DNA of 64,000 nt from positions 41,840,066-41,904,065 of the forward strand of contig NC_080042.1 of NCBI RefSeq assembly GCF_012489685.1. The letters run 5' to 3'. Every line of letters begins with the position of its first letter. Within the stretch, counting starts at the first letter, position 1. The notes beneath the pieces are model-generated. The model saw nothing but the letters and a program-made list of their open reading frames with translations, was not told where the DNA came from and did not search any database. The position numbers and the translations under genes are program-made. The DNA is from Lotus japonicus (Eukaryota; Streptophyta; Magnoliopsida; Fabales; Fabaceae). This document shows, in pieces, positions 14,847 through 51,576 of this stretch.

Positions 14847-14856
14847 CTATTTATAG
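14847..14856 (-). promoter_or_regulatory. TATA box of A's 5' LTR
   Basis: CTATAAATAG on the minus strand, followed by a GA/CT-rich leader without ATG and a CTTGAG/GTAGGT donor-like site near 14710. Confidence 0.6.
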
Positions 14857-15509
14857 GTTTTGGAAAAAGCGGAAAAAGGATTTTTTTGCGATTCCGATTT
14901 TTCCTGCGCGTTCCTCTGCGCATTCTAAGATAGGTTCTGGCGACAGAATTCCAGAACTCAAAACAGGATTCTTGGAATTAAACCAAAAGATCCAAAATCG
15001 GCATAAGTCGGTGTAAGTCGGATTATCCCGAAAAACTACTTTTTGCAGTGATCGTCGGATGAGAAAACTTCCTTCTGAAGAAAGATTAGGAATGATGAGA
15101 GAAATAGGAGAACGCGGGTGGAAAAAGTCTTCATCGTCTGTCGATCTTAGGTTTTCTCGAACTATCAGGGATTCCGTTTCGGCAAACTTCCGAGAATTGG
15201 AATTTGACGTTCGTACTTTCCAGGATTTCGCATCGAAATGGTTGTTTAAGGACGGAAAAGAGAAGTTCTAACATTTCTCTGAGGATTTTTTTTTTGGAAT
15301 TAGTTTCCATCGTGTCCTAAAGCGTAAATTAACTATTCACTAATACCTTTGACCTAGGATTAAGCGTATGTTAGTCGTGCTATAACTCTTTCGGTTTTTC
15401 GATAAATTCTTGGACTTTTCCTGAACCTTTTTCCTTCCCAAATTTATCTTAATCAAATAACTCTTTTATTTTATTCACTTATCCAAGGCGTTAAAACTTG
15501 GGCCTTACA

Positions 15510-29548: not shown

Positions 29549-32500
29549 TGTAACGCCCCGAATTTCGGGTGTCACTTTAGTAACCTATTAAAGTAAATAT
29601 GCAATATTTTCCAAACGAATGTATAAACACGAGTATTATATTTTTTTTTCTTTTCGAAGTGTATTTCCAAAACATGTCATGCATACTCCCAACTACAAAG
29701 CCTAACCAATAGAAACAACTCAACAAAACTATTATGCAATGACACCATGAATCCGACATACTCCTTACGATCTCCACATCGGGGAACCGCAGGAAAGCAA
29801 TGCATCGGAACCTACCCGAAACCTCAAATATAAATTCCTAAAATCTTTATGCAAGCTTAAACCAATAACGGTAAGCTCTGCAACCCAAGGCTTTAGCCTT
29901 AAACCAGACTCTACTCGTCGAGTACTCCACTATCCTTCAAGTCCTCATCTCTACTTGCACAAAGGTTAAGCTCCTTCGAAGATTCTCCATCGCCTAATAG
30001 CGTTAAGCGCCCAAACAACAAATAACAAACAGAAAGGGTTAACTCCATGCAATTACCATGTATAAAGAGAAAATCATGCTATTCAAATTTAATTACCTAG
30101 CATGGTAAATAAACTAGCAACATAACTCAACTCATATATCAACAACTTAAACATAGATTAACTCAGATAATAATAACCTCAACAATGTATCATCAAATCA
30201 GATATCAATAAACCAATAAATAGAATCCAACAACATAGGGTCAGGTGTTAGTTTCCTATAATGCAACTATATGCTGCTACCAAAATGGATCGATCAATAA
30301 CGTCTCTCAAGACGGGACAGACATGTGAAACGACAACCACTGAATGCCACTTAATATCGCCTCACAAGACGGGACAATCATGTGGAACGACAACCACTGA
30401 ATGCCACTTAATAACACCACGAAGGACGAGACAGACATGTGGAACGACAACCACTGAATGCCACTTAATAACGCCTCACAAGACGGGACAACCATGTGGA
30501 ACGACAACCACTAGATGCCACTTAATAACGCCACGAAGAACGGGACAGACATGTGGAACGACAACCACTGAATGCCACTTAATAACGCCTCACAAGACGG
30601 GACAACCATGTGGAACGACAACCACTGAATGTCACTTAATAACGCCACGAAGGACGGGACAAACATGTGGAACGACAACCATTGAATGCCACTTAATAAC
30701 GCCTCAAAAGACGGGACAGACATGTGGAACGACAACCACTGCACTACCACTAAGTTCAGCCCTATATGCCAAAATCAATCAACAATAATCACGTCTTATC
30801 CACTTGAAAGCAGTAATGACGGAAACTAGTAAACGGCCGAAGCGTTCAGAAAACATTTGGCACAAGCCTCAGAAACAGTCAACATAAGCAAGCATACAAC
30901 ATTGCAAGCATAATAATCATAATCCAGTGCCAATCAATATAAACATCTTCATCTCAAACGCAGGCAGTGCAATAAAAGCATGCAAGACTCAAAGACACTC
31001 TAAAACTGAGTTACCCTTACCTTAGCCAATTTCCTGCCTAAACTGCAACTTCAATCCAATAAAATATTTGTTTTCCACGTCGGCTCGCTTCCTTCTATTC
31101 TTTAGCTTCGCCGCGAGGCGCTTTCGTCCTTCGTACCCTTCACAAAGTTCATATACTAAACCTTAGCCTCTAAGGTCACATCCAAAGTTCCAAAACAAGC
31201 TTAGCTAATCTTTCTAACTTACTTAGGCTAATTCAAATGCTTTATTGTTTCAAGGACTAAAGTCCAAGAGAAAATATTTATGAGTCTTAAAGAAAGGTCC
31301 TTTAAGAAACGCGTTTTGCAAATAAGTCCTCAACTATAAGTGAGTTCTTTTTCAACCCTCAATCTTTAATAAATTTATCAAACAAACCCCAAGACTTTTA
31401 AAACTCAAGTTTAACCCAAAACTTCTAAGCATATTGTGTTTTAGGCCCTAAAATTATTTTCATACAATTTCTAACACTTAGAAAATCCACAAGTTATTCA
31501 AGCATTGTAATATAATTTTAAAATAAAATATTTTCTCATCTATTTTCCAAAGTAATTCTTTGCACTTGAAATAACTAATTTTGTCAAACGATTATAAACT
31601 GTACAGCGACTTTGGCTAATTTTTAAATATGTCAAATGCACTCCAAAAAATCTAATATTTTTATCATGGTTTCGTCTACAGGTTTTGTAAATCCCTATAA
31701 ATTTTCAAGTCTAAATTCGAAGTACAAAATTCAGGAAAAATAGAATACTAACAGCAGTTCCTGAGAAACGGGACAGCTTAACCCGTGCTCACTAAAATGC
31801 GCATAACTTGAGCTACACGAGTCGGAACGACATGAAACCAGCGGCAAACGTTTTCTAACGAAAAGATCTACAATTCTTATGAAGACAACTTCTTGAAATT
31901 CATTTGTTAACACAGCTTAAGAACGAGTTCAAGAGTTCGTAAATCCTACTAAGTTTTCATTCTGAAAACCTAACCTTTGTACTTTAATTCACAAAGGGCT
32001 AAAGTACAAGGCTTCCTATATATAAAAGAAATACAGCAGCACCATGATACATTTTGTAAAACTAAAATCCAATTTCTATTTTCCAAATCAGAAAAATATA
32101 TTAACCCTAGACTAACAATTGACAAAAACCATACAACCAATAATCTTATCTTTTCAATTAACATATAATTTCTAAACACAGTGTTCAATTCTTTCTCCTT
32201 CTACCTCAAGTCTCATGGTCATGGGACTGAGCTTCACTTCTTCCTCTGGTCTGGTCTGGTCGGGCTCTCCCCTTCCTCCAGTAGCCATTGAAACTGAATG
32301 ATAAAGGCACATAACTCAGAGAATGGAACTCAGGATATGAACAAGAGAAAAGCTAGGGTTTTGAAAAGGGAAATTTGAAATAGATAAGAATAATCACCTC
32401 TTAAAGATGATTGAGCCTTAGATTCAGGAAGAGGAGGTTGAGAGCTTCAAGAAATTGGCCTCCTTTCTCAGAACAAAGCTTGCCGGAGAAGACGGCGGCG

Positions 32501-33472
32501 ACGGCGGTCGCCGGAGTCACGGTGGCCGATCATCGAATCGATGGAGGGGTTTTGTTGCGGATGATGAGGGGAGTTCATTGGTGGTGTTTGTTTCTCCAAA
32601 AACTTAATGGGTCGCCGGAGATCGGAGGAAAAAGGTGGCGGCTAGGGTTTTGTGGTGGTGACCAAGGTGGCTCGTTCATGGTCACGTGATGGTGGTGAGG
32701 ACGTGGTGGTGCTCGCAGCTGAAGGAGGTGGCGGCGTCACCGTGGCTGCTGGCGGTGGTGGCTAGCTTGGGTGATGCCATGGTGGTTTGCACATGGAAGG
32801 AGAAGAAGGACATGGTGCTGATGCTCAGCTTAAGGGAGGAGAAGGAGTAACTGGGGCTGTGGTGAAGAGAAGAGAAGGTGATGGTGATGGGTTTTGCAAC
32901 AAAAATAAATTGAAGAAGAAGAAGGTGTTGTGGGTGAGTTGCAGAGGAAAAAGAGAAGAAGCTGTAGTGGGAAGGAAGAAAAAGAAACGTGAATGAGGAG
33001 GGTGGAAGAGAGAGAGAGCGGTTGAGGGAGTGGATGAAGGGAGAGAAAGAAAAGAAAATAATATCTGATTGGTAGGAGTGGGACCCGCGTAGGAGAGAGG
33101 AAGAGTAGTGGAGAAGAAACCAAATTTGACTAATTAAAGAGAGAGAGAAAGAATGAGGACGGTTGGGGGTGAGTGAGGGAAGAGAGTGTAAATTCAATTT
33201 TGATTGGTGGGGTAGGGACCACGAAGAGAGAGAAGGTTATCAGAAATTTGAATGTGTAATGAGGATGAGAGAAGAATAAAGGATATTCTTTTATGATAGG
33301 CTATCATAGGGAATTAGGAAAGGTGACCTGTTAGAGCAGGTCATCTCTTCAATAAAAAAAGAGATAATTAAAGAGTGGAAATTCCTAAGATTAAAATAGA
33401 ATAGTACACACAAAAATAATTAATACGTCGAAAATAAATCAATAATCTAATTATTTATTTTAGAGTCTTACA
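29549..33472 (-). repeat. 3' LTR of element C
   Basis: TGTAACGCCCC at the left, AGTCTTACA at the right. It includes the 57-bp repeat array (30312-30767) and a GA-rich segment at 32780-33240. It lacks about 46 bp present in the other LTR (near 36190-36235), which lie between two copies of cggccgaagc, a likely slippage deletion. ORFs read here are short or low-complexity. Confidence 0.93.
30312..30767 (-). repeat. 57-bp tandem repeat array in C's 3' LTR, 8 copies
   Basis: Eight copies with exact 57-bp spacing, each starting at or near acgggaca and containing gtggaacgacaaccactgaa. Two variants, ending cacgaagg and tcacaag, mostly alternate, giving a 114-bp higher-order unit. Because 57 is divisible by 3, spurious repetitive ORFs arise on both strands. 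Confidence 0.95.
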
Positions 33473-34892
33473 ATACTACCCTCTAAAAAGAAAGTTTCGT
33501 CCTCGAAACTTGGTGTCAGAGAAAGCTCGGGAATACCGTTCCCTGACATTTCCTTCCACCCTACAAGTAGTGTCAGAACGCATCCCAATACAGGGAAACG
33601 TTACAACGAAATACCTTAAAGGTGACATACAAGACAAAAGCAATTTTTAGGTATTATCAATCATCCTCGACTAGACCTAATAACATGCTCATGCTAGTGT
33701 ACTAAGCATCAAGATCCAAAGCCTAACTCACTCGCTATATGAACGACTTCACCGATATCGTCGTGCTCTCACACTAACAGCTCAACCATAATACTCACTA
33801 CCATAAACCTCATGCTAATACTATTCTAATCTCATCACAAGCTTCTTCTACCAACAGTCTCTTACGCAATAAGTCATCTTAGAATCTAACAATCCACTAA
33901 CGTCATCTCTTTCTGAAACTATCCTCATTATAACCATCCAATCAAGTTTAGTCTCTTAGTGCAATTAGCACGGAATCACATAGCCTATGGTTTTATAACT
34001 TTCGAAAGAATACTTAAGACTCTCTAACATTGAATCTTTTGTCTTAGTCTACCTCTACTTAGAGTAATCATGCAGACACTAATTATCGACTATACGACAA
34101 TCGTCAACTTTCAAAGATTTAAATCTCATTCCTCTACCATCAAGTGCTTAACATACTTACCTACCAACTCGACTAATCATCGATCAACTCTAATCAATCC
34201 TCCTATCATAGTCCATGCCAGCTGTGATTCCAAATATCAACCCCTCAATATTAAGTTGATCAGGCTCAATATCTTGCGGAAGAAAATTCAGAAAAAACTC
34301 ACTAGTAAGGCCAATGAGTCTATCTCATCAAGTGGTCTCATCTAAATTAAGATCATCTCTTAATCTACTCAATCTCTAACAACTCCATCTAGAAGAAGTA
34401 CAACCTTAGTTCTTGAAACTCAAACAACACTCTCTTAGGATTCATTCTAAGCTTCTATCTTCCTTACTAACATATCTGTACCAAAACAAGTTTCAAGGCT
34501 TAGAACTGCTCTAAACCCTATACCATTGTCCTAATTAGAATGCACACAACAGTCAAAGGAATGTGCCTAATGCATACTCCTTTCCCTGTTCAACAACATA
34601 TAGTCTCTACCTAGAATAACGTATAACAAAGCAGACAAACAACGAGTACGGTTAATATTTCGGTGGGGGTACTAACCATCTAGTCAGAAGTTAAGGAGTT
34701 AGTATTCAAAGCAGCAACATCAAGCAATAAACATCTAGTAGACAAAATAACAAGTAATCATATAATCTATATGGTAACACTCTGTCAATCGATCAACACC
34801 CAGCCGATCAATTACAGAGTTCAAACAACCTAACACAGAAGACCTATTCCCCAACAAGCTCTGGTTTCTCAACCAAAGCTCTGATACCACAA
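33473..34892 (-). other. Interior of element C
   Basis: It starts with the polypurine region (33473-33500) next to the 3' LTR and ends with the primer site at 34878-34889. No gag, protease, RT or integrase is detectable; a short stretch near 33520-33550 reads like the last chromodomain codons. The middle (33700-34630) is AT-rich, non-coding, and shares ordered blocks with the spacer in element A (5196-6640). Shared non-coding sequence in two elements with different LTRs suggests either common descent or function in cis. Confidence 0.8.
34878..34889 (-). promoter_or_regulatory. Primer-binding site of element C
   Basis: The minus strand reads TGGTATCAGAGC, three bases inside the 5' LTR that starts at 34893. 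Confidence 0.9.
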
Positions 34893-35655
34893 TGTAACGC
34901 CCCGAATTTCGGGTGTCACTTTAGTAACCTATTAAAGTAAATATGCAATATTTTCCAAACGAATGTATAAACACGAGTATTATATTTTTTTTTCTTTTCG
35001 AAGTGCATTTCCAAAACATGTCATGCATACTCCCAACTACAAAGCCTAACCAATAGAAACAACTCAACAAAACTATTATGCAATGACACCATGAATCCGA
35101 CATACTCCCTACGATCTCCACATCGGGGAACCGCAGGAAAGCAATGCATCGGAACCTACCCGAAACCTCAAATATAAATTCCTAAAATCTTTATGCAAGC
35201 TTAAACCAATAACGGTAAGCTCTCCAACCCAAGGCTCTAGCCTTAAACCAGACTCTACTCGTCGAGTACTCCACTATCCTTCAAGTCCTCATCTCTACTT
35301 GCACAAAGGTTAAGCTCCTTCGAAGATTCTCCATCGCCTAATAGCGTTAAGAGCCCAAACAACAAATAACAAACAGAAAGGGTTAACTCCATGCAATTAC
35401 CATGTATAAAGAGAAAATCATGCTATTCAAATTTAATTACCCAGCATGGTAAATAAACTAGCAACATAACTCAACTCATATATCAACAACTTAAACATAG
35501 ATTAACTCAGATAATAATAACCTCAACAATGTATCATCAAATCAGATATCAATAAACCAATAGCTAGAATCCAACAACATAGGGTCAGGTGTTAGTTTCC
35601 TATAATGCAACTATATGCTGCTACCAAAATGGATCGATCAATAACGTCTCTCAAG

Positions 35656-36112
35656 ACGGGACAGACATGTGAAACGACAACCACTGAATGCCACTTAATA
35701 TCGCCTCACAAGACGGGACAATCATGTGGAACGACAACCACTGAATGCCCACTTAATAACGCCACGAAGGACGGGACAGACATGTGGAACGACAACCACT
35801 GAATGCCACTTAATAATGCCTCACAAGACGGGACAACCATGTGGAACGACAACCACTGGATGCCACTTAATAACGCCACGAAGGACGGGACAGACATGTG
35901 GAACGACAACCACTGAATGCCACTTAATAATGCCTCACAAGACGGGACAACCATGTGGAACGACAACCACTGAATGTCACTTAATAACGCCACGAAGGAC
36001 GGGACAAACAAGTGGAACGACAACCATTGAATGCCACTTAATAACGCCTCAAAAGACGGGACAAACATGTGGAACGACAACCACTGCACTGCCACTAAGT
36101 TCAGCTCTATAT
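35656..36112 (-). repeat. 57-bp tandem repeat array in C's 5' LTR, 8 copies
   Basis: Same array as 30312-30767, also eight copies, with a one-base insertion in copy 2. Equal copy number in both LTRs fits a recent insertion. Confidence 0.95.
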
Positions 36113-37480
36113 GCCAAAATCAATCAACAATAATCACGTCTTATCCACTTGAAAGCAGTAATGACGGAAACCAGTAAACGGCCGAAGCCTCTCAGAAAAC
36201 GTCTCAATAAGTTTACTCGGCCGAAGCCTTCAGAAAACATTTGGCACAAGCCTCAGAAACAGTCAACATAAGCAAGCATACAACATTGCAAGCATAATAA
36301 TCATAATCCAGTGCCAATCAATATAAACATCTTCATCTCAAACGCAGGCAGTGCAATAAAAGCATGCAAGACTCAAAGACACTCTAAAACTGAGTTACCC
36401 TTACCTTAGTCAATTTCCTGCCTAAACTGCAACTTCAATCCAATCACATCTTTGTTTTCCACGTCGGCTCGCTTCCTTCTATTCTTTAGCTTCGCCGCGA
36501 GGCGCTTTCGTCCTTCGTACCCTTCACAAAGTTCATATACTAAACCTTAGCCTCTAAGGTCACATCCAAAGTTCCAAAACAAGCTTAGCTAATCTTTCTA
36601 ACTTACTTAGGCTAATTCAAATGCTTTATTGTTTCAAGGACTAAAGTCCAAGAGAAAATATTTATGAGTCTTAAAGAAAGGTCCTTTAAGAAACGCGTTT
36701 TGCAAATAAGTCCTCAACTATAAGTGAGTTCTTTTTCAACCCTCAATCTTTAATAAATTTATCAAACAAACCCTGTAAGGCCCGAGTTTTTAAGTTTATG
36801 CTAAGTGAATAAACTTCTTATTCACGATTAGAGTTGATGTAATGTGAAGGGAAACCTGAACGAAAGTTTATTAAATGAAATATATTTATGAAGGAGAAAG
36901 TTCAGGAAAAGTTCAAGGATTGAATTATGATCGATAAAAGTTATAGCACGAACGTGTTACGCTTAAACCTATGTCAGAAACCCTGGTATATAGCTAATTT
37001 TCACTTTTAGGCACGCTGGCAGTTAATTCCAAAAATCTTCAGAGAAATGTTAGAACTTCTCTTTTTCCATATATCACAATCGTTTCGAGGCGAAACTCTA
37101 GGATCTACGAACGTCCGATTCCAATCATCGGAAGTTTGCCGAAACCGAATCCCTGGTATTTCAAAACCCTAGAATTTCTCGACAATGAAGACTTTATCTA
37201 TTCAGAGCTTCAAATGAATATTCTACACGCGTACACCCATTTCTCTTGATGATTTCAATCTTTCTTCCGAAGGAAGTTTCCTATTCCGACATTCGATGCA
37301 AAAAGCAACTTATCGGGTAAAATAGTTTTATACCGACTATGCATTAGTTGCCAAAAATACAAGGAGACCTCTTTATAGTTTTGGAATTCTTTTGCCAAAA
37401 CATATCTATTAATTCACGAAGAATGACGCCGGAAAAATCAGATTCGCGAAACTTTCATTTTCCCGCGAATTTCCAACCTT

Positions 37481-37488
37481 TATATATA
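37481..37488 (+). promoter_or_regulatory. TATA box of B's 5' LTR
   Basis: TATATATA within ctttatatatagcaaag. From here to the donor-like site CGAG/GTATAG at 37630 there is no ATG. The 3' LTR has the same box at 46071-46078. Confidence 0.65.
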
Positions 37489-38303
37489 GCAAAGAAAGGA
37501 AGAAAAACTCAAATTCTCCTCCATTTTCTCTCTTCAAACCCGCGGCCAAGAACAAGGAAGAAGGAAGAAGAATTTTCTTCATCGTTTGCTTGATCGTCGA
37601 TCAATCAGTTGCTACTTCAAGGCTTCGAGGTATAGTCGCTAATCCTTACCTCCGATCGCTTTTTCCATAGCTTTTCTGTAGAGTTTTCTGAGTGGATAGT
37701 TTATGGGTTTTTGCAAAACTATCCTGAATCTTTCATTTCTGATTCTAAACCTCTTCCTTATGCGCCCAAGATCACTTCTGCCGGATTAGATTTTCCGTTA
37801 TGTCGCCGGAATTCCGTCGGAATCAATTTGAGTCTAAAATACCCATTTTTGGAGTTTTTGGAGTAAAGCTTCAACCTTTAGGCTGAAAACTATCGCCTTA
37901 GCTTAGTGCTAGTAGGATTAGTTGTCATAAACGTCGTTGGTGACGTCCCTGCAAAATTTTATTTTTGGGATTTCAGTTTTGAAAAATCCTAAGTTAAAAA
38001 TCATGACCAAAATACCCCTGCGACAGTTTTTGATCCGATAATTTTTCCGAGTTCAGAATACCCTTAGTTACGGCTAATGATAGCATAGGAACCAAGTTTG
38101 ATCGAAGAAAAATCGAGCCCCACAATTACCAAAAGTGGCCGAGCCCTATAGGGGAGGAGGAGGAAAATTTCCTTTTCCGAAAACTTGTCTTTCGCGCTAG
38201 ATTATCGTACCTTAGAGTATAGATTACTTCGAGTAACCTTAGTAAGTATCGATAGCTTAGTTTTCGATAGATTCTTATAGTATTCTGTGATTTTATTGTA
38301 AAG

Positions 38304-38381
38304 GTGCTTTTGAGGATTTCCCCGAGGACCAACACTTTGAGAGCGAGGAAGCACTAGTTGATCATTCTGGAGAACTTTCAG
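38304..38381 (+). other. Putative 78-bp leader exon in B's 5' LTR
   Basis: TTTTATTGTAAAG acceptor before, TTTCAG/GTGAGGG donor after. Open only in one frame (acidic peptide starting AFEDFPED). Same length and borders as in L2 and L3 although the sequences have drifted, which suggests the splice structure is maintained. It contains no ATG, so the first ATG of the predicted spliced mRNA would be that of the LTR-encoded ORF. Confidence 0.5.
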
Positions 38382-39092
38382 GTGAGGGCTTCTCACTGAA
38401 TCTCTAGTTAATGCTTAGGGTCGATGTTTCGACATTGTTTACTGTTTATGCACTGGAATTGTGTGTGATTGGAAAATGTTTTCTGAGGCTTCGGCTGACA
38501 ATGTAGATGATTCATCTACTGAATGTTTTTGAGATTGTCTTACATGCTATGTGCTATGTGGGTAATCTAGGATGTGTGGTGCATGCTTTATATGCTAAGT
38601 GCTAAGTGTTTATGATGCGATTTATTGATATATGACATGTTGTTGATTGTGATGATTTAAATATGCTCTGTACTGGAATCTGAGATTCTGAATGGTGAGA
38701 ATAGCGGGCAGGTCATGCCGATTTTATTTTGAGAGTTTTGAGAAAGTTTGATAGGACGAACGAGGTTCGGACCTTAATTTTGTTTAGTGGATCGAGACAT
38801 CCTCTGGAAGCGACTTGGGATTGGGAGATCCTGAAAATGTATAAGACTTGCGATAAGACAAAATGGAATCTATTTTATAAAGAAAATTCATAAGACCTTA
38901 AATAACCTCAAAATCTTTAAGTAATGATAACAACCTCGAAGGAAGGCATTGGAAGTCAAATCATAGTTTTGGAAAAACGAGGAGTGTCGTCGGATCCAAG
39001 TGTTGAGGAGTTTGGTAAGTTCTGAGTATGTTGGTACTCCTTCGCTCGTTGAGCAGTTTGTTAGCCATCCAAGGGATGAGCCGAGAAGCTTC

Positions 39093-39236
39093 ACTGAGGC
39101 GTGAGACCTTGTGAATGCGGGATACTCCACTGAGGCGTGAGACCTTGTGGAAAGCATGGAACTCCACTGAGGCGTGAGACCTTGTGAGAGCATGAAACTT
39201 CACTGAAGCGTGAGACTTCGTGAGAGCATTGATGAC
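39093..39236 (+). repeat. 35-37-bp tandem repeats in B's 5' LTR
   Basis: Four copies starting cactgaggcgtgagac at 39093, 39128, 39165 and 39201. The same array is at 47683-47826 in the 3' LTR, and a longer one is in L2. Confidence 0.8.
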
Positions 39237-39936
39237 CCGAAGAGTCATCGTGAGTGGTTGCACTCATTTTATGATTATTGTATTTTGTCGCAGAATCGAC
39301 TTTACCTTAGGGTAAGCTTTTAGAGACATTAATTTAGCTAGAACACGTGGCGACGTGTCGAGTGAGGTCGGAGACGTTGTTTGGCTAATCACTGCATTGC
39401 ATGCACTCATTAAGTGGTTTAAACACGGCGAGATACCGGACCACGGCGGATTCCAAAATTGGTTATAAGACCAGGATTTCCGCGTAAGAGCGCTGCTAGG
39501 TGACTCTTAGTAGCAGACCGAAATGGCAGGCCTTCGGGTTTTATGCTGATCTGACTACATGATGATGTTGGAGTAAGAGGCATCACGGGCCGAAATGGTC
39601 CCACCGTGGCTGGTGTTAGGGCTGATCCGATGATGTCCATCCGTTCCGGAATGCATATTGATTGACTGGGTTAACCTGCATATCATATCATGCAACATGC
39701 ATACTAATTTAGTTGTCGAATGTGATTGTTATTTGTTAATCCTATTTGGAACATGTTAATTGTTATTATTGCTGTTATGTACATTATGGAATATGCAACC
39801 CTAGGATGTTATCCCTAGCTATAAGCCTAAGTGGCTATTTATTATTTGTACCTATTGGGTTTATTATCTACATAGTTCTTTAGAGTTGACCCTCGCGTCT
39901 TCTGTGTGTGTTTTGGCGGACAACGCCTTTTGTCAG

Positions 39937-40416
39937 ATGAATATTGCGGATTGGTTCACCATGGTCCACCCTTCGGGGGGGATTAGGTATGAGATGATCG
40001 ATCAGGACGACCCCGGGTCGTGGGTGGTTGACCCCGCGAGCCATCGAGCGACGTATTCGGGGCGCATCATGGAGGATCACGTGGATAGCGGAGGACTTCT
40101 GAGGTCAGGAGTGTTGAGGCGATGCTCTATCAACTTCAACTTGCCACCGGGCGTTCACTGTGGACCAGGACTTGGAGGACCACCACCACCACCACTGTCT
40201 TCAGACGAGGAGGATCCCTCAGAGGAGATTCCAGTGGGAGTGCCTTCGGCAGGGTCTAGTGCACCCACCGTTGCGATCATCGATGATCAGGGTTCGGGCC
40301 CTAAGCCCGTGAGTCCAGCATCGGAGCGCACTGCGGTTGCGAGGGGAGGACGGATAGGGTTAGTAGACTTGGTCGTTCTGGATTCTGATTCAGACGACGA
40401 TCATGCTAGCACATAG
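39937..40416 (+). CDS. LTR-encoded small protein, B 5' LTR copy (159 aa)
   Basis: Unrecognised family. It begins MNIADWFTMVHPSGG, then SWVVD, HRATYSGRIMED, FNLPPGVHCGPGLG, a run of prolines, a DEEDPSEE patch, a variable Ser/Pro/Ala-rich middle and the acidic tail DLVVLDSDSDDD. Against L2 the block FNLPPGVHCGPGLG is identical in all 14 residues with 8 silent codon differences, and the HRATY..MED block has 7 silent changes against one replacement. That pattern points to purifying selection. The ATG follows CAG at 39934-39936. A protein-like frame also continues upstream to 39886 without ATG. It lies upstream of the primer site, so it is part of the LTR's R/U5 region and would be copied into both LTRs at each cycle. 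Confidence 0.75.
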   Translation: MNIADWFTMVHPSGGIRYEMIDQDDPGSWVVDPASHRATYSGRIMEDHVDSGGLLRSGVLRRCSINFNLPPGVHCGPGLGGPPPPPLSSDEEDPSEEIPVGVPSAGSSAPTVAIIDDQGSGPKPVSPASERTAVARGGRIGLVDLVVLDSDSDDDHAST

Positions 40417-40909
40417 TTTTGAGTGTTGGTATGAGCTCCTCGAGTTAGGATTAGTGTAGGAGTAGAGTTTTAGCTCTGACAGTCTTGCTTCATTTGTTAC
40501 TTAGGGGACAGGGTAGATCCGCCTATAGCTTTTTGTGTGGTTTCCTTACGGGAATCACAGAGAGTTGGTTGGACTAAGGAAGTCTTATTTTCAGACCATT
40601 GGGTCAGCTGATTCTCAGTTTTGAGGGATAGTGTTGCGGGCACTTCACCTTTTCATTTGGTTTGTATATATTGCCTACGGGCGTTGCACTTTTCTTTCCG
40701 TCACTGGAGGTTACTCGTGACGAGGTTGCTACTACAGCGGGGGCTGTTTATATATTGTATATTAGTTCTGATTTTTGTTATTGTTGGGTTTTATTTAATT
40801 CCGCCTTGTCTTAGTTATTATTATAAAAAAAAAAAAATATTCACGTTTTTCCGTATTAAGTTTATTTTGGTTACTAAAGTGACGCCACCGAAATCGGGGT
40901 GTTACATTG

Positions 40910-40921
40910 TGGTATCAGAGC
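40910..40921 (+). promoter_or_regulatory. Primer-binding site of element B
   Basis: TGGTATCAGAGC, three bases after the LTR end at 40906. Confidence 0.95.
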
Positions 40922-41119
40922 ACGGTCGAGTCTTTCGGGAGTTGTTGGGGAATAGGTCTTCTGTGCTAGGTTGTGTGACTCTGTAAAGAGTGAAAATTGA
41001 TTGTCTGCAAGCGATTTTTCGCTTAAAAATTGATTGAAGTTATTGCTTACTCATACTGTATAGTGATGCTAGATGCTATCTTATGATGAGTACTGACTGT
41101 TTGCTTCCTTTATCAGAAT

Positions 41120-44100
41120 ATGGTGAATACCAATCAACTAGCTGAGATGATGGCCACTATGGCCCAAGCCGTTACCGCACAGGCAAATGATAATGCCATG
41201 AGGCGTGCTACTGAAGAAGCACGTGAACAGCATCAGCGCCAGAGGGAAGTCACTCTGGACCAGAACAAAGGCCTCAATGACTTCAGGAGGCAAAACCCAC
41301 CAAAATTCTCTGGTGGTACTGATCCAGACGCAGCGGATCTCTGGATCCAGGAAATCGAGAAGATTTTCGGCGTTCTGCAGACTGTAGAGGGTGCCAAAGT
41401 GGGCATGGCGACTTATCTTCTGCTGGGAGATGCTGAATACTGGTGGAAGGGCACCAGGGGGATCATGGAAGCTAACCATGAAGAGATCAACTGGAACTCT
41501 TTCCGGGACGCATTCTTGGAGAAGTATTTTCCAACAAGTGCCCGGGATGAGAGGGAGGCGCAGTTTTTGACACTCCGTCAGGGAGGTATGTCTGTACCGG
41601 AATTTGCTTCGAAGCTGGAGTCTTTGGCAAAGCATTTCCAATTCTTTAATGATCATGTTGACGAGCGCTACATGTGCAAGCGCTTCGTGAATGGACTGAG
41701 ACCCGATATTGAGGACTCAGTGAGGCCGCTGGGAATCATGCGATTCCAATCATTGGTGGAGAAAGCCACGGAAGTGGAGCTGATGAAGAACCGGAGGTTG
41801 AACCGGGCTGGAACTGGAGGGCCGATGAGGTCGGGCTCTCAGAATATTCAGAACAGGGGAAGGTTTCAAAACAGGAGGCCGTATCAGCGTCCTGCTGGTA
41901 GAGGGTTTGCATCAGGATCTTACAAGCCCATGGTGGGTGCTACTGGTGGTTCTGGGGGTCAGACTCAGAACAGGGAACTGACGTGCTTCAAGTGTGGGAA
42001 GCCGGGGCACTTTGCTCGTGCTTGTCCCGACACGAGGCCTCAATGCTTCAATTGCAACAAGTTGGGGCATACTGCTGCTCAGTGCAGGGCACCAAAGGCG
42101 GAGCCAACCGTCAACACTGCTCAAGGAAAGCGTCCTGCTGCAAAGGCGAGAGTCTACACCATGGATGGTGAAGATGCTGAGGGGGTAGATGGACTGATTA
42201 GAGGCGACTGCGAGATTGACGGTAACCTTCTATCCGTACTTTTTGATTCCGGAGCAACGCATTCATTTATCTCTAGAGATTGTGCAATCAGATTAAGACT
42301 TCCTATTACTGCTTTGAGCTTCGATCTGATAGTTGCTACTCCTGCCAAGACTCTACTTGCTAATTCAGCATGCATGTATCGTCCGATAACATATAACAAT
42401 AGGATCTACCATGCTAACCTAGTATGCCTAACTCTTAAGAACCTAGATGTTATCCTAGGAATGGATTGGTTGTCCCGCTATCATTGTCTTTTGGACTGCA
42501 ACCGAAAGAGAGTGGTATTTCCTGATTCGGATCTTTCCGAGTATCTATCTGCCAATCACATCAGCGTCTCTTTGAACGAGGGATCTCAGGAGTATTCTGT
42601 TTTGCTAAGCTTGGAGAGCAAAGGGAACCCGGAAGTTGGCAGTATTCCAGTGGTGAGAGACTTCACAGATGTTTTTCCTGGCGATGTACCTGGTTTGCCG
42701 CCTGTACGCGACATTGAGTTTGCTATAGATATCGTACCGGGAACAGGGCCGATTTCGATTGCACCATATCGTATGGCACCTGCGGAGCTAGTGGAATTGA
42801 AGTCTCAACTCGAAGATCTTCTGTCGAAGGGATTCATACGACCAAGCGTTTCACCTTGGGGAGCCCCAGTCTTATTGGTGAAGAAGAAGGACGGGAAGTC
42901 GAGATTATGTGTCGACTACCGACAATTGAACAAGGTAACCGTCAAGAATAGGTATCCGTTACCTAGGATTGATGATTTGATGGATCAACTGCGGGGAGCT
43001 ACCATATTCTCGAAGATCGACCTGAAGTCGGGTTATCATCAAATCAGGGTCAAGACCGAGGATATCCAGAAGACGGCATTCAGAACCCATTATGGACACT
43101 ATGAGTACTTAGTGATGCCATTTGGGGTGACAAATGCGCCGGCAATATTCATGGCTTACATGAATATGACTTTCCATACATTCCTGGATCGATTCCTCGT
43201 GGTGTTTATCGACGACATCCTGATCTATTCAAAGAATGCTGAAGACCATGAGGAGCACTTGCGACAAGTTTTACAAGTGCTGAGGGAGAAGGAGTTGTAT
43301 GCCAATCCTTCTAAGTGCGAATTTTGGCTCGAAGAGGTAAAATTCTTAGGCCATGTGATCTCTAAGGAGGGGATAGTTGTGGATCCAGCAAAGGTAGAGA
43401 CCGTATTGTCGTGGGAACGGCCGAAGACAGTGACGGAGATCAGAAGTTTTGTCGGTTTGGCGGGATACTATCGTCGTTTCATCGAGAACTTCGCGAAGAT
43501 AGTTGGACCTTTGACTCAACTGACGAGGAAGGACCAACCTTTTGCATGGACTGAAGCGTGCGAAACTAGTTTTCAGACGATGAAGGAACGGTTGACGACG
43601 TCACCTGTACTCGTCTTACCGCAACCGGAGGAACCTTATGAGGTATACTGTGATGCTTCGCATCAAGGTTTGGGATGTGTGCTGATGCAACATCGGAAGG
43701 TGGTTGCTTATGCTTCAAGACAACTGAAGGTGCATGAGAAGAATTATCCAACTCATGACTTGGAACTAGCTGCAATCGTATTTGCGCTGAAGATTTGGAG
43801 ACATCACTTATATGGATGCAATTTCACCATATTTAGTGATCATAAGAGCTTGAAGTATTTGTTTGAGCAGAAGGAGCTGAACATGAGACAGCGTCGGTGG
43901 ATGGAATTTCTCAAAGATTACGAGTTCACTCTGCAATATCATCCTGGAAAGGCGAATGTTGTTGCTGATGCCTTGAGCAGGAAGATGCACATCTCGTCGA
44001 TGATGGTGAAGGAGCTGCAACTGCTGGAACAATTTCGAGATATGAGCTTGGATGTGAAATTGTCCGAGGGAGAACTGAAGTTTGGGATGATCAGAATTAC

Positions 44101-45538
44101 CAATGGATTGATGGAAGAAATCCGAGACCAACAGTTACAAGATGAGTTTCTGCTCGGGAAAAGGAATTTGGTAAGTCAAGGTAAAGACCCAGAATTCAAG
44201 GTAGGAAGTGACAATATCCTACGGTGCAAGGATAGGGTTTGTGTACCTAACAACCCTGACTTGAGAAGATTGATTATGGATGAAGGTCACAAGAGCAAGT
44301 TAAGCATTCATCCTGGAATGAAGAAGATGTACCAGGACTTGAAGGTGAATTTTTGGTGGCCAGGAATGAAAAGACAAGTGGCTGAGTATGTAGCTGCATG
44401 TCTGACATGTCAGAAGGCGAAGGTGGAGCATCAGAAGTCTTCAGGTATGCTACAAAGCTTGGATGTGCCAGAATGGAAATGGGATAGCATATCGATGGAT
44501 TTCGTCGTGGCTTTGCCAAGAACTCAGAAGGGATACGATTCTATTTGGGTAATCGTGGATCGACTGACTAAGTCGGCTCATTTCGTACCGGTGAGGACTA
44601 CGTACAACGTGGAGAAACTATCAGAGTTATATATAGCGGAGATTGTACGACTTCACGGAGTACCGACAAGTATTGTATCCGATCGAGACCCGAAGTTTAC
44701 ATCACATTTTTGGGGAACTCTTCAAGAGGCTTTGGGAACGAGGCTGAGACTAAGTTCTGCTTATCATCCGCAGACTGATGGACAAACTGAGAGGACAATC
44801 CAGTCGTTGGAGGATTTGCTACGCGCTTGCGTATTAGACAACAAGGGCAGTTGGGATACCTTGTTACCGTTGATTGAGTTCACATACAACAACAGTTTTC
44901 ATACGAGCATTGGTATGGCACCGTATGAGGCTTTGTATGGCCGCAAGTGTAGAACACCTTTGTGTTGGTACCAAAACGGAGAAAATCTGTTGGTAGGACC
45001 GGAACTTCTGCAACAGACCACTGAGAAGATCAAGCAGATCAGAGAGAAGATGAGGACTTCTCAGAGTAGACAGAAGAGTTATGCAGATCAGAGGCGCAGA
45101 ACTCTGGAGTTCGAAGAAGGAGATCATGTATTTCTGAGAGTTACTCAGACGACGGGTGTTGGTCGAGCAATCAAGTCAAAGAAGCTTACGCCCAAGTTCA
45201 TTGGACCGTATCAGATCACTCGTCGAATTGGACCAGTCGCTTACCAGATTGCACTACCTCCATTTCTATCAAATATTCATGATGTATTCCACGTGTCACA
45301 ACTGAGGAAATATATTGCGGATCCGACACATGTTATCGAGCTGGATGACATTGAGTTGAAGGATGATCTGTCTTTCGAGACACCGCCAATTAGCATTGGA
45401 GACACCAGGATAAAACAGTTGAGAGGGAAAGAGATCGAGTTAGTGAAGGTCATCTGGAATAAAGACACTGGTGATGCGACATGGGAGCTGAAGGAGAAGA
45501 TTCAAGAACAGTATCCAGAACTTTTTACTAACCCTTAA
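41120..45538 (+). CDS. gag-pol: Chromovirus Gag-Pol polyprotein (1472 aa)
   Basis: A single frame starts at ATG 41120. Gag has the retrotransposon capsid core from about residue 58 ([18 protein letters not shown]) and two CCHC knuckles at 289 ([14 protein letters not shown]) and 309. Protease has the DSG motif with D376 ([12 protein letters not shown]). RT spans about 525-765 with FIDD at 696-699, the usual form in plant gypsy. RNase H starts near 840 ([12 protein letters not shown]845). Integrase has H1057 in its zinc region and catalytic D1127, D1188, E1224 with 35-residue spacing. A chromodomain occupies about 1420-1470 ([17 protein letters not shown]). All key residues are present and no stop interrupts, so the element looks competent to make RNA-packaging, reverse transcription and integration proteins. 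The ATG lies 198 bp after the primer site, just after an acceptor-like TTTATCAG. Confidence 0.96.
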
Positions 45539-45544
45539 GTTTCG

Positions 45545-45575
45545 AGGTCGAAACTTTCTTTTTGGAGGGTAGTAA
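45545..45575 (+). promoter_or_regulatory. Polypurine tract region of element B
   Basis: After the Gag-Pol stop comes a short inverted repeat (TTTCGAGGTCGAAA), then TTTTTGGAGGGTAGTAA directly against TGTAAGG of the 3' LTR. The palindrome is shared with element A. Confidence 0.8.
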
Positions 45576-48500
45576 TGTAAGGCCCGAGTTTTTAAGTTTA
45601 TGCTAAGTGAATAAACTTCTTATTCACGATTAGGGTTGATGTAATGTGAAGGGAAACCTGAACGAAAGTTTATTAAATGAAATATATTTATGAGGTCGAA
45701 ACTTCCGATGATTGGAATCGGACGTTTGCCGAAACCGAATCCCTGGTATTTCAAAACCCTAGAATTTCTCGACAATGAAGACTTTATCTATTCAGAGCTT
45801 CAAATGAATATTCTACACGCGTACACCCATTTCTCTTGATGATTTCAATCTTTCTTTCGAAGGAAGTTTCCTATTCCGACATTCGATGCAAAAAGCAACT
45901 TATCGGGTAAAATAGTTTTATACCGACTATGCATTAGTTGCCAAAAATACAAGGAGACCTCTTTATAGTTTTGGAATTCTTTTGCCAAAACATATCTATT
46001 AATTCACGAAGAATGACGCCGGAAAAATCAGATTCGCGAAACTTTCATTTTCCCGCGAATTTCCAACCTTTATATATAGCAAAGAAAGGAAGAAAAACTC
46101 AAATTCTCCTCCATTTTCTCTCTTCAAACCCGCGGCCAAGAACAAGGAAGAAGGAAGAAGAATTTTCTTCATCGTTTGCTTGATCGTCGATCAATCAGTT
46201 GCTACTTCAAGGCTTCGAGGTATAGTCGCTAATCCTTACCTCCGATCGCTTTTTCCATAGCTTTTCTGTAGAGTTTTCTGAGTGGATAGTTTATGGGTTT
46301 TTGCAAAACTATCCTGAATCTTTCATTTCTGATTCTAAACCTCTTCCTTATGCGCCCAAGATCACTTCTGCCGGATTAGATTTTCCGTTATGTCGCCGGA
46401 ATTCCGTCGGAATCAATTTGAGTCTAAAATACCCATTTTTGGAGTTTTTGGAGTAAAGCTTCAACCTTTAGGCTGAAAACTATCGCCTTAGCTTAGTGCT
46501 AGTAGGATTAGTTGTCATAAACGTCGTTGGTGACGTCCCTGCAAAATTTTATTTTTGGGATTTCAGTTTTGAAAAATCCTAAGTTAAAAATCATGACCAA
46601 AATACCCCTGCGACAGTTTTTGATCCGATAATTTTTCCGAGTTCAGAATACCCTTAGTTACGGCTAATGATAGCATAGGAACCAAGTTTGATCGAAGAAA
46701 AATCGAGCCCCACAATTACCAAAAGTGGCCGAGCCCTATAGGGGAGGAGGAGGAAAATTTCCTTTTCCGAAAACTTGTCTTTCGCGCTAGATTATCGTAC
46801 CTTAGAGTATAGATTACTTCGAGTAACCTTAGTAAGTATCGATAGCTTAGTTTTCGATAGATTCTTATAGTATTCTGTGATTTTATTGTAAAGGTGCTTT
46901 TGAGGATTTCCCCGAGGACCAACACTTTGAGAGCGAGGAAGCACTAGTTGATCATTCTGGAGAACTTTCAGGTGAGGGCTTCTCACTGAATCTCTAGTTA
47001 ATGCTTAGGGTCGATGTTTCGACATTGTTTACTGTTTATGCACTGGAATTGTGTGTGATTGGAAAATGTTTTCTGAGGCTTCGGCTGACAATGTAGATGA
47101 TTCATCTACTGAATGTTTTTGAGATTGTCTTACATGCTATGTGCTATGTGGGTAATCTAGGATGTGTGGTGCATGCTTTATATGCTAAGTGCTAAGTGTT
47201 TATGATGCGATTTATTGATATATGACATGTTGTTGATTGTGATGATTTAAATATGCTCTGTACTGGAATCTGAGATTCTGAATGGTGAGAATAGCGGGCA
47301 GGTCATGCCGATTTTATTTTGAGAGTTTTGAGAAAGTTTGATAGGACGAACGAGGTTCGGACCTTAATTTTGTTTAGTGGATCGAGACATCCTCTGGAAG
47401 CGACTTGGGATTGGGAGATCCTGAAAATGTATAAGACTTGCGATAAGACAAAATGGAATCTATTTTATAAAGAAAATTCATAAGACCTTAAATAACCTCA
47501 AAATCTTTAAGTAATGATAACAACCTCGAAGGAAGGCATTGGAAGTCAAATCATAGTTTTGGAAAAACGAGGAGTGTCGTCGGATCCAAGTGTTGAGGAG
47601 TTTGGTAAGTTCTGAGTATGTTGGTACTCCTTCGCTCGTTGAGCAGTTTGTTAGCCATCCAAGGGATGAGCCGAGAAGCTTCACTGAGGCGTGAGACCTT
47701 GTGAATGCGGGATACTCCACTGAGGCGTGAGACCTTGTGGAAAGCATGGAACTCCACTGAGGCGTGAGACCTTGTGAGAGCATGAAACTTCACTGAAGCG
47801 TGAGACTTCGTGAGAGCATTGATGACCCGAAGAGTCATCGTGAGTGGTTGCACTCATTTTATGATTATTGTATTTTGTCGCAGAATCGACTTTACCTTAG
47901 GGTAAACTTTTAGAGACATTAATTTAGCTAGAACACGTGGCGACGTGTCGAGTGAGGTCGGAGACGTTGTTTGGCTAATCACTGCATTGCATGCACTCAT
48001 TAAGTGGTTTAAACACGGCGAGATACCGGACCACGGCGGATTCCAAAATTGGTTATAAGACCAGGATTTCCGCGTAAGAGCGCTGCTAGGTGACTCTTAG
48101 TAGCAGACCGAAATGGAAGGCCTTCGGGTTTTATGCTGATCTGACTACATGATGATGTTGGAGTAAGAGGCATCACGGGCCGAAATGGTCCCACTGTGGC
48201 TGGTGTTAGGGCTGATCCGATGATGTCCATCCGTTCCGGAATGCATATTGGTTGACTGGGTTAACCTGCATATCATATCATGCAACATGCATACAAATTT
48301 AGTTGTCGAATGTGATTGTTATTTGTTAATCCTATTTGGAACATGTTAATTGTTATTATTGCTGTTATGTACATTATGGAATATGCAACCCTAGGATGTT
48401 ATCCCTAGCTATAAGCCTAAGTGGCTATTTATTATTTGTACCTATTGGGTTTATTATCTACATAGTTCTTTAGAGTTGACCCTCGCGTCTTCTGTGTGTG

Positions 48501-49496
48501 TTTTGGCGGACAACGCCTTTTGTCAGATGAAAATTGCGGATTGGTTCACCATGGTCCACCCTTCGGGGGGATTAGGTATGAGATGATCGATCAGGACGAC
48601 CCAGGGTCGTGGGTGGTTGACCCCGCGAGCCATCGAGCGACGTATTCGAGGCGCATCATGGAGGATCACGTGGATAGCGGAGGACTTCTGAGGTCAGGAG
48701 TGTTGAGGCGATGCTCTATCAACTTCAACTTGCCACCGGGCGTTCACTGTGGACCAGGACTTGGAGGACCACCACCACCACCACTGTCTTCAGACGAGGA
48801 GGATCCCTCAGAGGAGATTCCAGTGGGAGTGCCTTCGGCAGGGTCTAGTGCACCCACCGTTGCGATCATCGATGATCAGGGTTCGGGCCCTAAGCCCGTG
48901 AGTCCAGCATCGGAGCGCACTGCGGTTGCGAGGGGAGGACGGATAGGGTTAGTAGACTTGGTCGTTCTGGATTCTGATTCAGACGACGATCATGCTAGCA
49001 CATAGTTTTGAGTGTTGGTATGAGCTCCTCGAGTTAGGATTAGTGTAGGAGTAGAGTTTTAGCTCTGACAGTCTTGCTTCATTTGTTACTTAGGGGACAG
49101 GATAGATCCGCCTATAGCTTTTTGTGTGGTTTCCTTACGGGAATCACAGAGAGTTGGTTGGACTAAAGAAGTCTTATTTTCAGACCATTGGGTCAGCTGA
49201 TTCTCAGTTTTGAGGGATAGTGTTGCGGGCACTTCACCTTTTCATTTGGTTTGTATATATTGCCTACGGGCGTTGCACTTTTCTTTCCGTCACTGGAGGT
49301 TACTCGTGACGAGGTTGCTACTACAGCGGGGGCTGTTTATATATTGTATATTAGTTCTGATTTTTGTTATTGTTGGGTTTTATTTAATTCCGCCTTTTCT
49401 TAGTTATTATTATAAAAAAAAAAAAAATATTAACGTTTTTCCGCATTAAGTTTATTTTGGTTACTAAAGTGACGCCACCGAAATCGGGGTGTTACA
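45576..49496 (+). repeat. 3' LTR of element B
   Basis: Matches the 5' LTR apart from a net loss of 212 bp near its start. There the sequence jumps from tatttatga to gaggtcgaaac and then carries 23 bp (about 45702-45724) that are the reverse complement of 37112-37134. Its LTR ORF is frameshifted. TATA box at 46071-46078. Confidence 0.95.
48527..49005 (+). pseudogene. LTR-encoded ORF, B 3' LTR copy, frameshifted
   Basis: The ATG at 48527 starts MKIADWFTMV, but a run of seven G in the 5' LTR is six here (about 48566), so the frame stops shortly after. The remainder stays open in the other frame to 49005 and is nearly identical to residues 17-159 of the 5' copy. This is a fresh one-base loss in a homopolymer, arising after or during insertion. 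Confidence 0.8.
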
Positions 49497-51576
49497 AACC
49501 CCAAGACTTTTAAAACTCAAGTTTAACCCAAAACTTCTAAGCATATTGTGTTTTAGGCCCTAAAATTATTTTCATACAATTTCTAACACTTAGAAAATCC
49601 ACAAGTTATTCAAGCATTGTAATATAATTTTAAAATAAAAGATTTTCTCATCTATTTTCCAAAGTAACTCTTTGCACTTGAAATAACTAATTTTGTCAAA
49701 CAATTATAAACTGTACAGCGACTTTAGCTAATTTTTAAATATGTCAAATGCACTCCGAAAAATCTAATATTTTTATCATGGTTTCGTCTACAGGTTTTGT
49801 AAATCCCTATAAATTTTCAAGTCTAAATTCGAAGTACAAAATTCAGGAAAAATAGAATACTAACAGCAGTTCGTGAGAAACGGGACAGCTTAACCCGTGC
49901 TCACTAAAATACGCATAACTTGAGCTACACGAGTCGGAACGACATGAAACCAGCGGCAAACGTTTTCTAACAAAAAGATCTACAATTCTTATGAAGAAAA
50001 CTTCTTCAAATTCATTTGTTAACACAGCTTAAGAACGAGTTCAAGAGTTCGTAAATCCTACTAAGTTTTCATTCTGAAAACCTAACCTTTGTACTTCAAT
50101 TCACAAAGGGCTAAAGTACAAGGCTTCCTATATATAAAAGAAATACAGCAGCACCATGATACATTTTGTAAAACTAAAATCCAATTTCTATTTTCCAAAT
50201 CAGAAAAATATATTAACCCTAGACTAACAATTGACAAAAACCATACAACCAATAATCTTATCTTTTCAATTAACATATAATTTCTAAACACAGTGTTCAA
50301 TTCTTTCTCCTTCTACCTCAAGTCTCATGGTCATGGGACTGAGCTTCACTTCTTCCTCTGGTCTGGTCTGGTCGGGCTCTCCCCTTCCTCCAGTAGCCAT
50401 TGAAACTGAATGATAAAGGCACATAACTCAGAGAATGGAACTCAGGATATGAACAAGAGAAAAGCTAGGGTTTTGAAAAGGGAAATTTGAAATAGATAAG
50501 AATAATCACCTCTTAAAGATGATTGAGCCTTAGATTCAGGAAGAGGAGGTTGAGAGCTTCAAGAAATTGGCCTCCTTTCTCAGAACAAAGCTTGCCGGAG
50601 AAGACGGCGGCGACGGCGGTCGCCGGAGTCACGGTGGCCGATCATCGAATCGATGGAGGGGTTTTGTTGCGGATGATGAGGGGAGTTCATTGGTGGTGTT
50701 TGTTTCTCCAAAAACTTAATGGGTCGCCGGAGATCGGAGGAAAAAGGTGGCGGCTAGGGTTTTGTGGTGGTGACCAAGGTGGCTCGTTCATGGTCACGTG
50801 ATGGTGGTGAGGACGTGGTGGTGCTCGCAGCTGAAGGAGGTGGCGGCGTCACCGTGGCTGCTGGCGGTGGTGGCTAGCTTGGGTGATGCCATGGTGGTTT
50901 GCACATGGAAGGAGAAGAAGGACATGGTGCTGATGCTCAGCTTAAGGGAGGAGAAGGAGTAACTGGGGCTGTGGTGAAGAGAAGAGAAGGTGATGGTGAT
51001 GGGTTTTGCAACAAAAATAAATTGAAGAAGAAGAAGGTGTTGTGGGTGAGTTGCAGAGGAAAAAGAGAAGAAGCTGTAGTGGGAAGGAAGAAAAAGAAAC
51101 GTGAATGAGGAGGGTGGAAGAGAGAGAGAGCGGTTGAGGGAGTGGATGAAGGGAGAGAAAGAAAAGAAAATAATATCTGATTGGTAGGAGTGGGACCCGC
51201 GTAGGAGAGAGGAAGAGTAGTGGAGAAGAAACAAAATTTGACTAATTAAAGAGAGAGAGAAAGAATGAGGACGGTTGGGAGTGAGTGAGGGAAGAGAGTG
51301 TAAATTCAATTCTGATTGGTGGGGTGGGGAGAAGGTTATCAGAAATTTGAATGTGTAATGAGGATGAGAGAATAGTAAAGGATATTCTTTTATGATAGGC
51401 TATCATAGGGAATTAGGAAAGGTGATCTGTTAGAGCAGGTCATCTCTTCAATAAAGAAAGAGATAATTAAAGAGTGGAAATTCCTAAGATTAAAATAGAA
51501 TAGTACACACAAAAATAATTAATACGTCGAAAATAAATCAATAATCTAATTATTTATTTTAGGGTCTTACACCTTG

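Follow-up and report, generated by a model that had tools for sequence, protein, structure and literature searches.

The LTRs (long terminal repeats) of retrotransposons normally hold control signals only. Here we ask whether the LTRs of a Lotus japonicus retrotransposon family also hold a protein gene. The stretch of DNA analysed (the window) comprises 64,000 nt of contig NC_080042.1 (assembly GCF_012489685.1, forward-strand positions 41,840,066 to 41,904,065) and is filled by a nest of LTR retrotransposons. Open reading frames (ORFs) lie at 39937–40416 in the 5' LTR of an element which we call B, at 7482–7964 in a solo LTR (L2) and at 26445–27092 in part of a more distant LTR (F), just where a preliminary description of this DNA had placed them. 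We conclude that there is almost certainly a protein gene within these LTRs and that it is under selection. We also consider it probable that the LTRs of this Ty3/gypsy family are themselves genes, with a spliced message for a small protein and an unspliced genome.

The LTR reading frame and selection upon it

The ORF was found to lie inside the LTRs, the limits of the B 5' LTR and of L2 being set exactly by 5-bp target site duplications (TSDs; Table 1). Alignment of B, L2 and F over their length bore out the common architecture which had been described for them, and the reported 8 silent and 0 replacement differences between B and L2 within 14 codons proved exact, the codons being 67–80. That this is a small protein gene in LTRs is thus supported by the LTR limits, by codon-level selection and by relatives from other loci.

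Pairwise ratios of nonsynonymous to synonymous divergence (dN/dS) were estimated with the codon model GY94 (F3x4) and compared to dN/dS = 1 by twice the difference in log-likelihood (2ΔlnL), using DNA of the three intact copies in this window only; the database relatives were available as proteins only. The ratios are rough because synonymous divergence is near saturation, which does not hold for the contrast between frames: B and L2 gave a dN/dS of 0.166 over 158 codons (2ΔlnL 58), and the other two sense frames gave 1.06 and 2.02. By codon position, B and L2 differed at 35, 32 and 74 sites. The first 80 codons had a dN/dS of 0.049 (2ΔlnL 62) and the remaining codons 0.348, while comparison with F gave 0.187 for B and 0.150 for L2. 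This measure, which the preliminary description had proposed as a check across diverged LTRs, was therefore well below 1 among the three copies. As a yardstick, the pol frame of B versus that of element L (the element in which L2 sits) gave 0.058. One antisense frame of the ORF, the second, had a dN/dS of 0.31, mirroring the third-position changes, and the mirror frame of pol was likewise low (0.15). The 3' flank and the end of the putative intron 2, which precedes the ORF, gave values of 0.55–1.93 across six frames each, with no 2ΔlnL above 5.0.

Between B and L2 only 1 insertion or deletion (indel), of 3 nt, was found in the 480-nt ORF versus 56 in the remaining aligned LTR, of which 6 were multiples of three; at the rate of the remaining LTR, the probability of no frame-breaking indel in the ORF is ~0.0009. 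A chance open frame was rejected on the basis of the codon models and the indel pattern. A chance or recently captured frame without function would agree with L. japonicus being the only species named in the databases searched, but the frames are also open in two subfamilies with ~50% protein identity and we find this explanation hardly credible. An ORF of 159–215 codons under strong purifying selection in two diverged subfamilies indicates instead that the protein serves the element.

Scanning the six-frame translation of the window with a family profile identified six copies of the ORF: 3 intact, 1 frameshifted and 2 remnants, the last being in La and Lb, the LTRs of element L, where they are cut off after ~41 codons. 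The two LTRs of B are 99.55% identical (3781 aligned bases), showing that B is a young insertion, and the ORF is intact only in its 5' LTR, the 3' copy being broken, so that resident copies decay and selection must act on copies that transpose. Selection could also be imagined at the level of the host, with LTR copies domesticated as Lotus genes which the element merely spreads, and eight loci are indeed in RefSeq as uncharacterised genes. However, the signal was found between copies of mobile elements, and these copies decay after insertion (the frameshift in the B 3' LTR, the deletions in La and Lb), which makes domestication very improbable.

The gag-pol frame of B matched Pfam models for gag, CCHC, protease, reverse transcriptase, RNase H, integrase and SH3_Tf2-1. 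This order (gag, protease, reverse transcriptase, RNase H, integrase) is that of Ty3/gypsy elements and agrees with the chromoviruses (Tekay/Del) to which the family had been assigned. There was no Pfam match to a chromodomain after the integrase of B, although the C-terminal segment of gag-pol may resemble a chromodomain of the plant type. Membership of the chromoviruses is therefore likely but unproven.

Relatives and properties of the protein

Among the matches listed, database searches found 17 protein relatives (P0001–P0017). Nine of these are named as L. japonicus: eight RefSeq proteins (P0002, P0003, P0005, P0006 and P0008–P0011) and I3SYR4 (P0013), which presumably belongs to a cDNA set. 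The other eight come without species or sequence type; the source of P0001, P0004 and P0016 is marked lgn, which is taken as Logan, and P0007, P0012, P0014, P0015 and P0017 are ENA records of 532–637 nt. No further named species was found among the relatives listed by the protein searches, one of which scored 7995 candidates sharing most words and another of which had 41 candidates. The gene had been called conserved, and this holds within Lotus, with no further reach seen, all nine relatives with a species being L. japonicus. Either the family is young or it is hidden in other species by the masking of transposable elements. The relatives split into a B/L2-like group and an F-like group, with P0003 being 91% identical to L2 and P0008 91% identical to F. 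Two F-like relatives, P0014 and P0015, keep the N-terminal domain (26445–26687) and then jump to 27138–27188, which is 3' of the ORF, a pattern expected of a deletion between GGTACT repeats; P0013 appears similar by eye.

The protein is acidic, with a pI of 4.2–4.5 in B, L2 and F, and poor in lysine: the ratio of lysine to arginine was 18:276 in 20 family sequences, compared to 93:102 in gag-pol. This scarcity is partly a matter of composition and serves as supporting colour only, 3–5 lysines being expected per protein versus 0–2 seen in B, L2 and F (P = 0.03–0.31). The highest 19-residue Kyte–Doolittle hydropathy was 0.56–1.02 in these three proteins, suggesting that there is no membrane segment. 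AlphaFold2, run with alignments of 20 and of 19 sequences, predicted the same four strands (residues 15–68) and a C-terminal hairpin, with block means of the predicted local distance difference test (pLDDT) of 63–82 over residues 11–70.

Following a variable middle, the sequence is conserved again at the C-terminus, where it reads roughly (L/I/M)(V/I)x(L/V)DSDSD. This resembles a SUMO-interacting motif (SIM), for which passages of a published account give a consensus with a four-residue core (hhXh or hXhh) and an acidic/Ser flank, as in IIVLSDSD of Daxx with its SxS (PMC8616421). Nine of 15 complete C-termini matched the pattern strictly and 14 of 15 when Met was allowed, P0004 being the one that failed. 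We regard the SIM-like tail as a lead on possible SUMO binding.

No known family was matched in family searches of the LTR protein. A role as particle component or Gag co-factor, structural and in the cytoplasm rather than as a nuclear regulator, would be in keeping with the N-terminal domain being the best conserved part and with the intact gag-pol frame of the element. None of 20 members, however, matched a Gag, nucleocapsid or protease model of Pfam, and the separate spliced message set out below would be an odd route to a structural protein, so we judge this role to be unlikely.

A putative spliced gene in the LTR

The ORF had been described as a single exon. While the ORF is real, the evidence points to a spliced gene over most of the LTR, which looks, from its sequence signals, like a gene of three exons. 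Three RefSeq proteins (P0003, P0005 and P0006) have N-terminal pieces with an origin other than the sequence immediately upstream of the ORF. That of P0003 matches L2 at 9670–9587 with 61% identity, 1.6 kb upstream of the ORF, and the pieces of P0005 and P0006 have their counterpart at the equivalent position in La, 1.4 kb upstream. The matching blocks end in a strong donor, CAG/GTGAGG or CCG/GTGAGG, and a good acceptor, TGTCAG (TGCCAG in F), stands before the ORF exon. When the upstream block (exon 2) and the ORF were joined, L2 read ...KKLEDPP-MSMGDW, compared to ...RKLEDPP-MSMADW in P0003; La read ...SELENQQ-LSMADR in one frame, compared to ...TLEELQ-MSMADW in P0005, and ...KERAGKPTVEYGG in another, compared to ...KERAGKSTVEYGG in P0006. 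Three loci therefore give one junction. P0003 and P0005 cross it in the reading frame of the ORF. P0006 crosses it in a different frame and comes into the family frame only at a later point, and so supports the junction but not the protein. Exon 2 was 78 nt long in all four LTRs measured. We considered a protein-coding exon 2 fused to the ORF. The joined frame is uninterrupted in L2 and La, whereas B has a stop in it, and exon 2 was consequently taken as noncoding. Intron 2 and its junction are, in our judgement, very probably real.

The signals further upstream are a TATA-like box at LTR position 653–705 in B, L2 and La, an acceptor-like TTAAG or TAAAG before exon 2, and a donor-like GAG/GTAGGT or GAG/GTATAG 0.66–0.67 kb earlier. 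The TATA box and both pairs of splice sites are kept in the two LTRs of B, L2, La and Lb. The T content is 32–35% in the introns, 20–21% in the ORF and 17–29% in the leader exons. RNA would start from the TATA box ~0.7 kb into the LTR and an intron of ~0.67 kb before the 78-nt exon would be removed, as the conserved signals by themselves suggest; the 78-nt exon would then be spliced over an intron of 1.4–1.6 kb to the CAG acceptor right before the first ORF codon, for which there are the RefSeq models and the matching sites. Full splicing would make the AUG of the ORF the first AUG, the spliced leader of 197–198 nt having 0 AUGs in B, L2 and La versus 54, 42 and 43 in the unspliced leader. We think that, on balance, the TATA start and intron 1 are correct.

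The whole LTR is copied from genomic RNA, U3 from its 3' end and U5 from its 5' end. As both putative introns are kept in five LTRs (both of B, L2, La and Lb), the RNA which was reverse transcribed had kept them, whatever its exact start. Were the splice sites in use, the family would need two RNAs: a spliced message for the small protein and an unspliced genome for replication.

The ORF could alternatively be a leader cistron of the genomic RNA, or be expressed from a promoter just upstream, with the spliced RefSeq models being prediction artefacts. TATA-like runs are found 93 nt (L2) and 129 nt (F) before the ATG, making a proximal promoter possible, and P0001 and P0007 read straight into the ORF from the sequence before its ATG. 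Set against this, three models from different loci share one junction and an unspliced leader started at the upstream TATA would have 42–54 AUGs. In B the motif scan revealed no TATA close to the ORF, and a promoter only near the ORF was rejected on that account. We consider it improbable that the spliced models are artefacts of this kind.

It should be noted that, of the noncoding LTR sequence, putative exons 1 and 2 differ most between B and L2 (~97 of 198 sites, versus 805 of 3284 in the rest), yet both have retained their splice sites. Exon 2 differs by 34.6% between L2 and La, compared to 0–4% in the downstream intron, and divergence is raised upstream of exon 2 as well. This could be due to recombination or to silencing pressure on the exons. 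Within intron 2, B and L2 differ by ~6% at 39094–39333, as opposed to mostly 18–30% around it, which may represent a cis element or recent recombination.

Table 1 Features of the LTR gene and of the elements that carry it (window positions).
Feature	Position	Strand	Remarks
LTR ORF of B, putative exon 3	39937–40416	+	159 aa; open frame, codon selection
LTR ORF of L2	7482–7964	-	160 aa; sense to its LTR; open frame, codon selection
LTR ORF of F	26445–27092	+	215 aa; open frame, alignment to B/L2
ORF copy in B 3' LTR	48527–49005	+	Frameshifted; 6 G instead of 7
N-terminal conserved domain of B, codons 1–80	39937–40176	+	Four predicted β strands; B/L2 dN/dS, AlphaFold2
C-terminal SIM-like motif of B	40369–40404	+	LVVLDSDSDDDH
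TATA-like box of B	37478–37490	+	CTTTATATATAGC; corresponding box CCTATAAATAGC in L2, La and Lb; putative promoter
TATA-like box of L2	10467–10478	-	CCTATAAATAGC
Putative exon 1 of B	37510–37629	+	Start set at TATA+32; donor GAG/GTATAG; consensus signals only
Putative intron 1 of B	37630–38303	+	Consensus signals only
Putative exon 2 of B	38304–38381	+	78 nt; donor CAG/GTGAGG; counterpart of upstream exon in P0003, P0005 and P0006
Putative intron 2 of B	38382–39936	+	1555 nt; acceptor TTTTGTCAG directly before ORF ATG; junction of P0003, P0005 and P0006
LTR part of B 3' of ORF	40417–40906	+	Presumed 3' untranslated region/terminator; 14 indels, no strong codon signal
Putative exon 1 of L2	10327–10446	-	Start set at TATA+32; consensus signals only
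Putative exon 2 of L2	9587–9664	-	Upstream piece of P0003
Element B	36774–49496	+	5' LTR, gag-pol frame, 3' LTR; TSD AACCC on both sides
B 5' LTR	36774–40906	+	4133 bp; ends TGTAAGG...GTTACA; 5-bp TSD AACCC
B 3' LTR	45576–49496	+	3921 bp
TSD AACCC of B, left copy	36769–36773		
TSD AACCC of B, right copy	49497–49501		
gag-pol ORF of B	41120–45538	+	1472 aa, intact; Pfam domains
L2, solo LTR	6998–11151	-	4154 bp; perfect 5-bp TSD TCCCA; sits in element L
La, LTR of element L	11953–15509	-	TATA, both splice-site pairs, ORF remnant 12409–12531
Lb, partner LTR of element L	1–3465	-	Truncated at the window edge; TATA and splice sites as in La, ORF remnant 340–462

L2 adjoins sequence which reads as a CCHC zinc knuckle, so it apparently lies within the gag of element L. 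F is the 3' part of its LTR and was aligned to the end of the B LTR at 68% up to position 27579; on its left side it abuts the end of another element at 25656. A different element family occupies 29549–36773 and 49494–51571 as an apparent LTR-internal-LTR-internal array, and the insertion site of B apparently lies within the second LTR of this array, a few bases short of its end. The LTRs of the array family contain 57-bp tandem repeats (30176–30817 and 35635–36162), and its open frame at 30261–30788 gave no Pfam match worth noting.

Possible functions and known systems

Among possible functions, we favour first, tentatively and by analogy, one like that of Rev of human immunodeficiency virus (HIV) or CERV of the Caenorhabditis elegans element Cer1. 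A nuclear accessory regulator made from spliced RNA would help the intron-retaining genomic RNA to survive and to leave the nucleus. An acidic, lysine-poor protein with a SIM-like tail could work through SUMO-rich nuclear complexes, a route which its sequence suggests. It is a more speculative step that the product of the three-exon LTR gene affects intron-retaining genomic RNA, or the silencing of it, in trans, as an independent Rev/CERV-like system of plants. The same reading would have promoter, terminal repeat and gene travel as one unit which is made twice per transposition and left in intact solo LTRs, and we hold this to be just as speculative. With the gene inside the LTR, intact solo LTRs are possible standing copies.

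A number of observations weigh against the proposed gene and its function. The proposal is a prediction from sequence and gene models. Support for intron 1 was not found among the gene models of P0003, P0005 and P0006: P0003 starts two residues before the putative exon 2 acceptor, P0005 has its start within exon 2, and nothing in these LTRs matched residues 1–26 of P0006. The AUG-free leader is support rather than proof since the LTRs are related, and an AUG was absent from 2.4–3.7% of shuffled leaders and from 5–6% of size-matched random pieces taken from the unspliced leader. F is without the upstream part of the LTR, and the TATA-like runs close to the ORF in L2 and F also belong here. For the protein, the AlphaFold2 models are weak (mean pLDDT 54; predicted template modelling scores of 0.41 and 0.29), and a fold search of them gave no significant match. 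Shuffled versions of the members matched the SIM criterion in up to 22% of cases. No nuclear export signal or RNA-binding motif was recognised in the protein, though no systematic search was made, and B and L2 are without the Arg-rich stretch of F.

The same LTR gene could instead encode an anti-silencing factor, the C-terminal motif of which binds SUMO-modified chromatin or RNA-silencing proteins and so relieves the silencing of the family in trans. This is a possible but doubtful explanation. It is in line with the SIM-like C-termini, which have SxS after the core as described for Daxx in passages of PMC8616421, with the scarcity of lysine and with the high divergence of exons 1 and 2, as silencing pressure might produce. 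However, the motif is degenerate and often matched by shuffled sequences, SUMO binding is predicted only, and AlphaFold2 places the SIM core in a low-confidence β-hairpin.

HIV Rev, Rem of mouse mammary tumour virus (MMTV) and nematode Cer1 CERV act where a spliced message and an unspliced genome coexist. Production from a spliced mRNA, the trait which these proteins share, is suggested in Lotus by splice sites and by three RefSeq models which agree on one junction. Passages of PMC10309623 describe CERV as a nuclear protein which is made from a spliced mRNA, is required for export of unspliced genomic RNA and has no clear homology outside nematodes. The Lotus gene is similar in belonging to a Ty3/gypsy element which must keep an unspliced genomic RNA and in encoding a lineage-restricted accessory protein; it differs in lying in the LTR, and its export activity is proposed by analogy.

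In plants, passages on EVADE, a Ty1/copia element of Arabidopsis, report a short, spliced and early-terminated RNA which makes one protein (PMC8892269, PMC12786077, PMC6317226), and that the unspliced RNA is mostly nuclear (PMC8892269). A 2025 review states that plant LTR elements are generally without introns and names Ogre and EVADE as exceptions (PMC12786077). The Lotus family would join these as a plant LTR element that uses splicing, but their introns serve the expression of gag and pol, whereas the Lotus gene is a separate one in the LTR.

Additional ORFs of plant elements (for example Grande gene23, RIRE2, Retand and env-like ORFs) are placed in the internal region; they are without known homologues or function and are retained by many copies of a family (PMC7264820). 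The Lotus gene is like these additional or extra ORFs in being an extra gene beyond gag-pol, without known homologues and kept in several copies, and is unlike them in its position inside the LTR rather than in the internal region. A large survey set the minimum length of the extra ORFs that it counted at 250 codons (PMC6317226), a threshold at which proteins of 159–215 amino acids would be missed.

An LTR location is known from MMTV, the Sag of which is called "LTR-encoded" in a passage of PMC11998498. The Lotus protein is likewise encoded in an LTR but has no predicted membrane segment, unlike Sag, which is a type II transmembrane protein, and no connection between the two emerged from family or fold searches. 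The Sag gene lies in U3. Where the Lotus ORF falls depends on the actual ends of the RNA, and a start at the upstream TATA box would put it in R/U5. A plant LTR-encoded gene was not found among the matches listed in open-access literature, where the matching passages of PMC1560396, PMC12037069 and PMC4016481 describe none and several other titles deal with MMTV; a subscription paper could exist. The Lotus gene is thus an accessory gene of an LTR element, and its location and gene structure are, as far as we could find, new for plants.

LTRs are treated as regulatory DNA and are usually masked before gene finding, and our results suggest that such genes can be missed by surveys which cover internal regions only or which set a minimum of 250 codons for ORFs. 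As the protein gene under selection sits in the LTR, a solo LTR can remain a lasting source of a factor encoded by the element. If the LTR introns are real, this family would provide a case, in a model legume and with a candidate protein, of how a plant retrotransposon keeps and exports its unspliced RNA.
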